A stretch of 64,000 bases of DNA from Stentor roeselii (taxonomy: Eukaryota; Ciliophora; Heterotrichea; Heterotrichida; Stentoridae), in NCBI GenBank assembly GCA_006503475.1, contig RSEH01000159.1, forward strand, positions 1-64,000. The letters run 5' to 3'. The notes beneath the pieces were generated by a model that was not told where the DNA came from, did not search any database, and saw only the letters and a list, made by a program, of their open reading frames with translations. The position numbers and the translations under genes are program-made. Shown in pieces: positions 26,497-36,367 of this stretch; the stretch's first letter is position 1, and every line of letters starts with the position of its first letter.

Positions 26497-29165
26497 TTAA
26501 TTATTCCATCTACTTAAATAGTTCAACATCATTCCCATTCCTCCACACAGAATACAATTGATTGGGTAAGTACTATTAGTTTGGTTAGTGCATTTGACTT
26601 GGTAAGCACATTCCCAGCAACAGTTATTAAAACCTTGATGAGATCCTAAAGTGCAAACGACATCTCCAGCGTTCACAAAATAATCATTATTGCATATTTC
26701 ACACTTAACAATCAAATTAATCCCAACAATAACTGAAATCTGGTTAAAAACCTGATAATTCTTACTATAGTATTCCTGAATCGCCTTAATAATCCAGCAT
26801 TTTTTGCATAAAATTTCATTATTATCTTTATTTTGCCTGAAGTTTACAACCCAAGTATTTTGATTACAATTAGAACAGCGCATTTCGTATTCTTGATAAT
26901 AAGTGACAAGACATTTAAAGCAGAGTTGGTTATCAAAATCAGTTTGATATAAAGGATTAACTAAAAATTGATTATTGCAAAGAATACAATGGCCTCTTTT
27001 TGCTACTAAAAAAATGTATCTTCTGAGATCTGCATTGTTTTCCTGTCTTTGTAAAAAACAGAGAATTGAAAAAGAACGGTTTGGACATCTTGGACATTTT
27101 AACTCGTGGTCTTCAATCTTTAGACTGGCATCGAAATTGCTTTCGGCCCATTCTTTATACATTGATTTTATACAGTCAAAGTGGAAAAAACAACCATCTC
27201 TTGAAAAGATGCATTCTTTTCCATTTTCAGGTATTTTATTACATTTGTGACAAGTATTATGTGAAATTTCATTGAAGTTTTCTAGGATTTTATAAGATGA
27301 ATCGAAATTTTGGTTTGAGGAAGTCAAAGAGTTTTTTAGAGATTTAAGCTCTTCTAGATCATCGACGATATTTTGGTCGATGAAAGGAGGAATACCTTCT
27401 TTGAACTGCTTGAGGTATATTTTTATTATTTTATCTTCAGTCTTATTCATTTGGGTGTAAAATCTTAAAAGTTCCTCATGTTCAGATTTTGTAGGCTCTG
27501 GTTGAAAATCATCGCATATGAGAGATTTTTTCTCACTCATTTGCTGACTGTTATCTCTAATCTGATCAATAAAATCATTTCTCAAAGTAAAAATTGCATA
27601 AATCTTCTTATTTTCTCTTTCTCGTTGTCTAGAAAAAAAATGAAAAACATTATAAATCCCATTATCATTTTGATTAAAAGTATACCTTATATACTCATAC
27701 CTCTCTCCACCATTACTTCTCACCAGCTCTTCACTGATGATAACAACAGAAATTCCAAATATACGGCTTAAAACCTGAATAGTTTTAAAGTTATTTTCCA
27801 AATCATCATTTACCCTGAAAGGATTCAAATCTGAAAAAAAATAACTAAATAATCCAGCTCTTTTAATCATTTTTTCACAAAGTTCTACAGCTTTTGGATA
27901 ATCAATTCTTTCCACAACTTCCTGATTTTCCAATGTAAGTTTGCACATTGTTGATAAATTCAAGAAATTTCTAATCATTTCTTTCGTACCCAGTTCATTT
28001 TTAGTTCGATTAACATGAAGCGAGAGTTGAAAAGCAAAAGCTCTTATTTGATTTTTATTATCTGAAATAGAGACACAGCTAGAGTACTCAAGTTTCAATT
28101 CATTGAGGATTGAAGGGTCTTTAACTTCAAGTTCATCAATAGAGTATCTTCGAGAAATTTTTGTAATGGGGTCGATTTTATTGATTTCGATGTTTTGAGC
28201 CCTGGAAGCTGGACGAGAGTTTCTTGATTTGACTTCTTCTCGAGATCTTGCTTCTATAAAAGGACTTCTGGGGATGTTGCGGTTGGAAGATGGACGAGGG
28301 GTTCTGTATTTGCTTTCTTCTTGATGTATTGCTTGAATAAAAGAATCGTTAAGGATTTTCCGGTTGGAAGGTGGAGGAGGGGTTCTGTATTTGCTTTCTT
28401 CTTGATGTATTGCTTGAATAAGAGAATCGTTGTGGATTTTCCGGTTGGACGGTGGACGAGGGGTTCTGAATTTAGATGGCTCGTGAATCGGATTTATTTT
28501 GGGACTTTCCATCATTATACTACTTGATGGTGGTCGAGAGGTTCTCAAATTTCCGAGTTCAACTCGTTTCTTTACATTATCCAAGTAAGGTTCCCCTGAA
28601 AAGTATTTTTCTACCCATTCCAAATTTCCGTGTTTCTCCAAATCAATCATCTTCTCTGTAAAGTAAAGGTAATACTTTTTAGATTCCCGTAAAATATTAA
28701 GCCTCATCTTCATTTTTTCCTCAGATAATGAAAATTTTTCAATTCTGTTTGCTTCGATAATGGAAATAGAAACTTTAAACTTTTCAGAGAAAAATTCAAT
28801 TTTTTTCGAGTCTGTCTGATGAGTTGATAAGTTTTTGACGACTTCTGAGATATTATTCGGATATTTTTCGATTGTGTTGTAGTCATAAAGGTAGATTAAA
28901 CACCATTCCAGTCTTTTTGTCAGATCATTTTCCTCATTGCAGCAGGTGTCAATAATGAAAGTGATTATATTGTTTTGGAATAAGGAACTTATCGGCTTTC
29001 TGAATGTCTCGAAATTTGAAGGATTTTTTGAGTGAACATCAGGTTGTAGAGATAGGAACTCATTAAACAGGCTAGGATGTTGTTTTCACAACCTAATTCA
29101 CGGATATGCTTGAAATCTGGAGCGTATTGATTTAGATACTTGCGAACAGGCTGAGAGGTTTCCAT
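26497..29165 (-). CDS. Array paralogue B: otubain-like/RING-like protein, frameshifted near N-terminus
   Basis: The main open frame (738 aa from the ATG at 28713) continues upstream without stops to about 29080, and homology to the paralogues extends to an ATG at 29165 in another frame (METSQPVRKY, then IRELGCENNILACLMSSYLYNL). The frames meet at a six-T run (plus strand 29024-29029); one extra base would join them. It may be a decayed 5' end, a sequencing error, or recoding. Domain order: first N-terminal domain, an 81-bp repeat-coded Arg/Pro/Ser linker, an otubain-like domain (DNKNQIRAFAFQL; Cys position Gln), a RING-like module (CHKC ... GCFFHFDC ... CPRC) and zinc modules. If translation starts at 28713 the first domain is mostly lost. 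Confidence 0.65.
28219..28545 (-). repeat. 81-bp in-frame tandem repeat (about 4 units)
   Basis: Period 81 nt (27 codons); GGTTCTG recurs at 28300, 28381 and 28462 on the plus strand. The two central units are nearly identical and the outer ones degenerate. The sense product repeats a unit like YRTPxPxSNRKI plus NDSxIQAIHQEES, a flexible basic linker between the two N-terminal domains of paralogue B. Confidence 0.85.
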
Positions 29166-35372: not shown

Positions 35373-36367
35373 ATGTCTTGTTCTTATCATGGCTGTCTTA
35401 AAGATATCAGAAAATCTTGTAAAGTTTGCCAGAAAATTTCATATTGGTGCATGATTCACTCAGGAATTCACGAAGATGAAACAGAACACGAGCTTCTACG
35501 TCTTTCAGAAGAAGAATTAAAATCGATATCAACAAAAAACCTAAACATCCAAATCAACAATATCATACTTCAAATAATGAATGACACTGAAAAAATAATC
35601 ACAGCTTTAAAAAAATCCTCAAATGAAACAATAAAAAACCTCAAAAAAACATCGAAAAATATAAAAAATATTTCTGAGCTTGAAAAATTTCGATTTTCAG
35701 AGGAAAGAATATCTTTTCTTATAGATGAAGTAGAACAGATCTCAAAAGACATGAAAATCAGCAAAACAAGACAAATAATTGATTTAGAACAAAAACTTGA
35801 AGAAAAAGAAAAAATACTTCAAGATGTTGAAAGTTTAAAACGTGTCTTGGCAACCTTAGAAAAAAGTGAAGGGAAAATGGTATGTGAGAGTAGGAAAGGT
35901 TATGCCTATGTAAAGATTCAATCTTTAAATAAAGAAGATAAATTAAAATACTTCTGGGAGATTACTGGAGAAAGGTGGATAATTAATAATTATTCAGAAT
36001 TGCAAGTTCGGGGCTGGTATAGAAAATTATTTTTTTCTGATGATGGAAAATACGCTTTTTTCTGTAATCACTAGTCAGGTAATATTGAAAAAGATTGTAA
36101 TTCACATTGAAGTCGGTGATCTTCATTGAAGGCTGTAATTTAAAAAGAAGCTAGTAACTTTAAACGAAGCTAGTAATATATAAACAAGGTCGTAACATTC
36201 ATTTAGGTAAGGGATGTAAAGGCTGTATCATGTGTGTAGTGCATGTTTGGAACCTGGAAAGCAAGAAGTGTGAGATCAGTACTTGTGAACCCCAAGACCC
36301 CAAGACAAGGGAGTGGATGGGCCGGTACCCGGAGTGTTGCTATAAGCCAATGGGGTACTTCCTTTAG
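35373..36367 (+). CDS. B-box-like / coiled-coil / WD40-type protein with a string of tiny introns
   Basis: The unspliced frame stops after 233 aa. Removing ten 15-16-nt GT...AG units gives a 279-aa protein. The N-terminus is a B-box-like zinc site (C3, C8, C16, C19, C26, H29, H33, H39), followed by a coiled coil (about 60-165) and a short beta-propeller segment. After splicing, SDDGKYAFF continues as YFGSTSRLHVWNLESKK, a regular WD40 strand-turn-strand with its Trp in place; the unspliced read loses this. The exon after the string (36243-36367) is open to TAG and noticeably less AT-rich. Only about one propeller blade is present, so this may be a shortened member of a larger family. It is the only plus-strand gene within the paralogue array. 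Function unknown. Confidence 0.6.
36064..36242 (+). other. String of ten tiny introns separated by 0- or 3-nt exons
   Basis: Ten units start with GT, end with AG and are 15 or 16 nt long, at 36064, 36079, 36097, 36116, 36135, 36154, 36173, 36192, 36207 and 36225. Eight have A at position 10, as the four ordinary introns do; the last two have G there. They are separated by ATT, TCG, GCT, CTA, CTA, GTC, GCT and TGC, except for two abutting pairs (36064/36079 and 36192/36207) with AG|GT junctions. Units 3-7 form a 19-bp tandem repeat. Removing all ten keeps frame and yields Y-F-G-S-T-S-R-L-H-V-W. A decayed repeat insertion is the alternative. Confidence 0.6.

Follow-up and report, generated by a model that had tools for sequence, protein, structure and literature searches.

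Arrays of tiny putative introns and one-codon exons across a variable loop in a Stentor roeselii gene family

The window gene and its ten-unit array

The gene at positions 35373-36367 (+ strand) of the window, the whole 64,000-nt stretch analysed here (C70:1-64000 of the 44.39-Mb, 522-contig genome used for comparisons), contains ten consecutive GT-AG units of 15-16 nt at 36064-36239 (176 nt). Its first exon (35373-36063; 230 codons plus one base) is an open frame with protein matches in the genome; by eye it holds an N-terminal Cys/His-rich segment and a coiled-coil-like middle, followed by the start of a WD40-like hairpin (SDDGKYAFF plus T). The units, all on the + strand and read here as putative introns, measure 15, 15, 16, 16, 16, 16, 16, 15, 15 and 15 nt from 5' to 3'. 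According to the array parse, introns 1 (36064-36078) and 2 (36079-36093), both with A at position 10 (A10), adjoin through a 0-nt exon and precede the micro-exon ATT (36094-36096), which with the preceding T gives the Tyr found at this place in every family loop compared (31/31). The 16-nt introns 3 (36097-36112) and 4 (36116-36131), both A10, and 5 (36135-36150), 6 (36154-36169) and 7 (36173-36188), all A10/A11, are separated by the micro-exons TCG (36113-36115), GCT (36132-36134), CTA (36151-36153) and a second CTA (36170-36172). GTC (36189-36191) leads to intron 8 (36192-36206; A10), which adjoins intron 9 (36207-36221) through another 0-nt exon, and a second GCT (36222-36224) lies before intron 10 (36225-36239). 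Introns 9 and 10 are without A10; the corresponding units of other genes carry it in 91% and 85% of cases, and the second-last parsed unit is of 16 nt in 35/36 arrays. The last exon (36240-36367) reads LHVWNLESKKCEISTCEPQDPKTREWMGRYPECCYKPMGYFL plus stop, its L being shared with the last micro-exon, and its motifs VWNLE and RYPEC are kept widely among paralogues.

The initial annotation had placed ten such units at 36064-36242; the units stand, but the last of them stops at 36239. Their coordinates bear out the 0- or 3-nt spacers, and A10 is confirmed in eight of them (three of the five 15-nt units). Also as annotated, removal of all ten joins SDDGKYAFF to an open frame (...FSDDGKYAFFYFGSTSRLHVWNLE..., 279 aa, stop starting at 36365), removal of the array as one block (...AFFLHVWNLE..., 272 aa, in frame) deletes seven residues, and leaving the whole array in gives a stop after 233 aa. 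Retention of any of the five 16-nt introns, or of intron 1, truncates the protein, while introns 2, 8, 9 and 10, all of 15 nt, are each tolerated without truncation (retention of intron 10 keeps the frame open as SRCIMCVVHVWNLE). A 16-nt intron cannot simply become exon, because the frame shifts; a 15-nt one can. Block removal being in frame in the window copy, the evidence against it comes from family-level tests only.

The genetic code of the window looks standard. Its 18 long frames (13,260 codons) hold 125 TGG and no TGA, internal TAA or TAG, and end in TAA (11) or TAG (7); as openness under the standard code was the criterion for choosing them, the telling figure is the 125 TGG together with TGA-free frames of up to 1749 codons. 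Reassignment of TGA, TAA or TAG was rejected on these counts. Scanning for ordinary GT-AG introns that restore the frame yielded 39 candidates (10-29 nt), without a sharp size preference (15 nt in six, 16 nt in two). Two 15-nt candidates are convincing, both with A10: GTAATTTTTATTCAG, which joins minus-strand frames of 1748 and 556 codons, and GTAAGGACTACCTAG, which joins frames of 329 and 126 codons. Elsewhere in the window, an 81-bp tandem repeat (3.3 copies, 28203-28473) lies inside a long minus-strand frame (26497-29085). Positions 1-76 consist of 9.5 telomere-like CACCCTAA repeats, judging from which the window start is a chromosome end. The telomere type, the code and, by comparison with PMC9505925, the intron size are compatible with a Stentor-like heterotrich ciliate.

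The array family and tests of unit-wise splicing

The window gene had been singled out as one without known parallel; within this genome it is one of dozens. A 701-bp query matched 32 pieces of the genome, itself included, in alignments that run through the array, with the number of units varying between copies. The proposed genome-wide search for GT...AG runs at 18-19-nt spacing was carried out with the two-unit pattern GTAACNTANANNGAAG-NNN-GTAACNTANANNGAAG (up to three mismatches), which matched 142 times against none in a reversed control. A second pattern, built from the final two introns and the micro-exon between them, was found at the same tolerance in 33 places besides the window copy (control 0). 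Looser patterns gave 280 places against 14 in the control and 203 against 3; among the matches listed, many lie in the 33-bp arrays of C227 and C127. This excess over the control, together with further diverged arrays that could be parsed, indicates that arrays of tiny putative introns extend beyond the subfamily studied.

The parsed main set comprises 36 arrays with 401 units, 144 of 15 nt and 257 of 16 nt, at 6-18 per array. The parser demands GT and AG at unit ends and prefers exons in multiples of 3, other lengths being penalised in 29 arrays and disallowed in seven added later. Left out of this set are C39 (decayed), C2 (one AG lost), C486 (a fragment), C50 (segmented by hand), L076 and L077 (no array found), L082 (a short chain), L078 and L080 (ambiguous), and the second C244 gene, L079, L081, L083, L084 and L085 (parsed with 14-nt introns allowed). 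The 365 exons between parsed introns measure 0 nt (68), 3 nt (281), 6 nt (11), 18 nt (2), 27 nt (1), 5 nt (1) and 2 nt (1), so that 363 are of 0, 3, 6, 18 or 27 nt under a parser that disfavours other lengths. Frame-keeping copies give a spliced protein of the form DGKYCFF-[Y...loop]-LxVWNLE...RYPEC...-stop.

The spacing of the units is highly regular. In the 36 arrays (7,251 bases), GT-N11/12-AG elements number 407, against 81.9 after dinucleotide shuffling. They are spaced by 0, 3 and 6 nt 68, 281 and 13 times, where about 0.8-0.9 would be expected for each, and any other spacing up to 12 nt occurs at most once; this histogram is independent of the parser's preference for multiples of 3, although the regions it covers are not. 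A10 is found in 27/27 interior 15-nt units and in 136/144 of all parsed 15-nt units. Interior 16-nt units have A10 in 189/202, A11 in 86/202 and either in 199/202 (230, 100 and 252 among all 257). Units differ at their inner positions but keep their length, spacing and the A near position 10. In the decayed copy C39, both GT and AG are intact in only 5 of 12 recognisable units, against 401/405 elsewhere (Fisher P 6e-10, a rough value given no weight here, as the parser demands GT/AG and the four lost or altered units were counted by eye).

The strongest test concerns reading phase. The first exon sets the predicted phase, in which a codon consists of the last base of one micro-exon and the first two of the next. 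Joined in this phase, the micro-exons of 34/36 arrays contain no stop in 337 codons; the same triplets read as such contain 10 stops in 303, and the third phase 36 in 303. Shuffling of micro-exons gives a mean of 17.9 stops (minimum 8) and shuffling within columns 20.6 (minimum 7; 5,000 shuffles). Interior junctions alone show 0 stops in 120 across 22 genes (expected 5.6, P 0.0012; 3.6 and P 0.012 when order is shuffled within genes). C285 and C469 are left out of the stop test because their exon lengths break the frame, and in three of the 34 the reading began further into the array (at the third intron in C124, the second in C494a and the fourth in C166), the whole arrays all being open. The longer middle exons of L070 (27 nt), L072 (18 nt) and L073 (18 nt) likewise carry no stop in the predicted phase, and phase 0 of each contains one. 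Stop avoidance confined to the predicted phase speaks against one long intron. Comparison of paralogues by phase and spacing thus lends strong support to the annotated handling of 3-nt exons and abutting AG|GT junctions, and the units are very probably spliced out one by one, with the micro-exon codons joined.

The two frame-breaking arrays among the 36 have a 5-nt piece (C285) and a 2-nt piece (C469, which also has an in-frame TAG); outside the set, C2 has lost one AG. Introns of 14 nt are needed to keep the frame in C124, C494a and C50, and C166 (L074) requires a GC-AG intron for the same purpose. The 14-nt GT-AG introns form a minor class, required for the frame in L043, L061, L063, L069, L081 and L049, that of the broken copy L061 being assigned only by analogy with L043.

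Further arrays appear once 14-nt introns are allowed: the second C244 gene (31 introns), C92 (35), C138 (9), C30 (18) and C92b (9), the last two partly parsed, and only phase 1 is open in all five. In C219 (L085; 22 introns) no phase is free of stops; this array either counts against the rule or is incompletely parsed. The C92 array (L081, C92:179983-180594) has 35 parsed introns of 14/15 nt with mostly one-codon exons and a single open phase; its first exon looks unrelated by eye, and the array apparently begins before the stretch read and continues beyond it. The second C244 gene (L049 positions 175-718; C244:9474-10017), a second family gene on that contig, has many abutting pairs among its 31 parsed introns; its predicted loop, about 27 residues long, is followed by VTVYNLETK.

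A different unit type is seen in L078 (C227:936-2217, minus strand), with 77 consecutive GT-AG units, nearly all of 15 nt, and 0/3-nt spacers. Its period is mostly 33 bp, and the frame of an 11-residue repeat is partly open if unspliced. If its exons were joined in the phase used elsewhere, CTT|AGA junctions read by eye would give TAG; because of these, and because the 33-nt period is a multiple of 3, L078 does not support the phase rule. Arrays of the 33-bp type also occur at both ends of C127 (10-227 and 229938-230155), at the start of C354 (10-77) and at C8:151494-151612; those of C127 and C354 are perhaps subtelomeric.

The variable loop and competing explanations

By eye, the N-terminus of the protein resembles a B-box zinc finger with a coiled coil after it. 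Against Pfam, the window protein and three spliced paralogues gave neither a B-box zinc finger match, the Cys/His pattern being visible by eye only, nor a WD40 match at E up to 1; neither end of the protein received a Pfam name. A profile of 12 spliced C-termini searched against solved proteins ranked RACK1 first at a whole-sequence E of 2e-4, while the best single blade reached an i-E of 2.9. Of the 18 chains at E <=0.01, 17 bear the names RACK1/G-beta-like or PAF acetylhydrolase IB (LIS1), known WD40 proteins. The score is a sum over weak blades, and non-WD40 names such as Cdc73 appear lower. This lends weak support to a C-terminal part resembling one WD40 hairpin, and by eye the 279-aa window protein has one hairpin only, not several blades of a propeller. 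Protein searches gave 136 matches in the genome, mostly to the N-terminal part, which points to a much larger family. In one relative, L076 (C204), no array was found and the C-terminus is a ubiquitin domain (Pfam E 4.2e-20); L077 (C157), also with no array found, has a C-terminus similar to it by eye. An array-less relative that could serve as an outside standard for the loop was not found among C486 (a 3' fragment), L076 and L077 (other C-terminus); L070, L072 and L073, with their middle exons of 18 or 27 nt, come nearest to one.

The predicted loops differ in every gene. The loop and dN/dS sets comprise 31 genes (C285, C469, C124, C494a and C166 left out), and all 31 spliced loops are different, begin with Y and finish in L, M or F. 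They span 6-17 residues, both ends included, so that the loop is hypervariable, without the normal length annotated for the WD40 strand-turn-strand; the hairpin itself has weak support as WD40-like. Between the ends, F/G/W/Y occur 88 times against 55.1 expected from shuffled codon positions and C/I/V 17 times against 41.3; none of 4,000 shuffles reaches either value, the groups having been chosen after the composition was seen. From this variability and residue choice we infer a putative binding loop.

Micro-exon identity between genes is 0.287, against 0.292 expected from composition, while the free intron positions (5-9, 11-13) of the same units reach 0.585. In a close subfamily of 14 genes, hand-picked from the closest dN/dS pairs, the values are 0.330 and 0.766. 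Where an identical 16-nt intron is present in another subfamily gene, the micro-exon is identical too in 12/136 comparisons; per-base identity is then 0.443, compared with 0.321 when all units of that gene are counted. Micro-exons thus appear saturated with change and free intron sites do not, which argues that the loop is probably under diversifying selection, as in a binding surface, provided that those sites are roughly neutral. Their wide variation in diverged arrays suggests that they are; should they be constrained, the argument would be weaker. In the flanking exons, simple counting over short sequence gives a median dN/dS of 0.61 for the 182 of 465 pairs with dS <1.5, and values above 1 in three of the 22 closest pairs shown. 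This high ratio fits fast evolution and also relaxed constraint.

The arrays also carry traces of how they change. Adjacent micro-exons are identical in 17/193 cases, where 9.1 would be expected within genes (P 0.002) and 4.6 overall. Such an excess is as expected from the annotated tandem duplication of an intron with its flanking 3 nt, and supports an origin of this kind for the putative units. Intron similarity inside an array is about 0.80 at all distances (0.776 between genes); as it does not fall with distance, homogenisation is weak.

The proposed mechanism brings these observations together. In the window gene, ten tiny spliceosomal introns would each be removed singly, and the one-codon exons would be joined into the turn of a WD40-like beta-hairpin; the array family appears large in this ciliate, with 6 to 35 introns in the arrays parsed. 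Gene comparison shows a rule of 14-16-nt GT-AG units, spacers nearly always in multiples of 3, and one open phase. The spliceosome might recognise introns by their fixed short size, so that each site would pair with its partner in the same unit and exons of 0 or 3 nt would not be skipped, and abutting AG|GT units might be removed in sequence, as in recursive splicing. Arrays would lengthen when an intron and the exon after it are duplicated in tandem, and shorten when such a pair is lost, a step that the identical neighbours support; each event would add or remove one residue with the frame kept, while splice-site mutation could not lose a 16-nt intron without a frameshift. The loop itself would evolve under diversifying selection. 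On this basis, a dedicated diversity system, in which intron-plus-codon cassettes vary a recognition loop residue by residue without frameshift, can be put forward tentatively. Such a loop would be comparable to an antibody CDR3 in a family of dozens (B-box-like, coiled-coil, WD40-like hairpin), perhaps serving self/non-self or pathogen recognition.

A neutral system is conceivable, although it must be considered doubtful. The units would still be spliced, but the introns would have multiplied by tandem duplication and been locked in, since the loss of any 16-nt intron would shift the frame, around a loop that is merely unconstrained. The excess of identical adjacent micro-exons, the 6-17-residue range and the truncation of the window protein by any one retained 16-nt intron all agree with this. 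Harder to reconcile with it are the strong departure of loop residues from codon-position composition (with groups defined post hoc), the faster change of micro-exons than of free intron positions in the same units, and the constancy of the loop ends.

Alternative splicing, with micro-exons or 15-nt introns variably included or skipped and many loops made per gene, is unlikely. Splice sites are alike throughout the array, and four of the five 15-nt introns of the window copy could each be retained without truncation. Skipping a micro-exon, however, would need introns of about 33-35 nt, which are absent among the annotated Stentor introns as described (PMC9505925), and retention of a 16-nt intron truncates the protein.

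Removal of the array as one long intron of variable length, its inner repeats meaningless for the protein, is very improbable. Its outermost ends are GT and AG and block removal is in frame in the window copy, yet the micro-exons would then be free to carry stops in any phase, and neither the residue bias of the joined codons nor the keeping of unit length, spacing and the A near position 10 while inner positions vary would be expected; the introns annotated in Stentor, moreover, are reported as 15 or 16 nt throughout (PMC9505925). A non-coding or subtelomeric minisatellite inside decaying genes is scarcely credible: some copies are broken (C39, C469, C285 and the C486 fragment) and some arrays with a different kind of unit are seen at contig ends (C127), but in frame-keeping copies both flanking exons are open and alike (DGKY / VWNLE / RYPEC), and avoidance of stops in one phase contradicts it for the 34 arrays tested. 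For frame-keeping arrays, the one-long-intron, minisatellite and pseudogene readings were rejected by the stop-phase, spacing and window-copy splicing tests.

Significance and relation to known systems

The splicing machinery proposed for unit-by-unit removal would be ordinary; it is the gene architecture that appears new. To our knowledge, no known kind of gene has a hypervariable loop with about one intron for every residue. A comparable layout was not found among the open-access papers listed, though an earlier mention in the Stentor genome literature or its supplements is possible. If true, this would be the most finely split protein-coding sequence known to us. It would make testable how the spliceosome handles 0- and 3-nt exons beside 14-16-nt introns, and would offer many natural cases of intron multiplication through tandem duplication. 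A hypervariable gene family is also indicated, and ordinary gene prediction could overlook its variable part, because an array left in truncates the window protein and one-piece deletion hides the loop.

Published work on heterotrichs provides the closest background. The 8,806 annotated introns of Stentor are described as being all of 15 or 16 nt, with a branch-like A at position 10 in 15-nt introns and mostly at 11 in 16-nt introns (PMC9505925). Most intron-bearing genes are said there to have one or a few introns; some have more than eight, the splicing of all of which is doubted (PMC9505925), and these could be arrays of the tiny-intron kind. The words microexon, tandem and recursive do not occur in that paper. 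Introns of Stentor coeruleus and Blepharisma stoltei share with the units described here their length, GT-AG ends and an A near position 10/11, but runs with 0- or 3-nt exons, present here, are not mentioned in the passages of those reports compared (PMC9505925, PMC9942806). Relative to the Stentor introns as described, the arrays also contain 14-nt units and one GC-AG unit, and in their 16-nt units A10 is commoner than A11, whereas A11 prevails in the published set (PMC9505925).

Individual features recur in more distant systems. One-nucleotide exons, as reported in Arabidopsis and in Fusarium CYP621A, can likewise be joined, but those are single minimal exons, whereas runs of several to about 30 are seen here (PMC4674806, PMC12940212). 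Intron gain by tandem genomic duplication also creates introns through duplication; the case described concerns one potato gene (PMC4974935), while here an intron and a codon would be duplicated serially, with one residue added each time. At Drosophila ratchet points (recursive splicing, zero-nucleotide exons), juxtaposed AG|GT sites are similarly used for stepwise removal, but these are reported to sit within long introns (PMC8605326), whereas here two introns of 15-16 nt abut. Schistosome micro-exon genes (MEGs) resemble the present family in their serial short exons and fast-evolving products; their exons are given as 3-81 bp and their introns as up to 5 kb, against mostly one-codon inner exons here (PMC10526429, PMC4350168). 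The long introns between micro-exons are absent from the arrays, in which the 14-16-nt intron is itself part of the repeated module.
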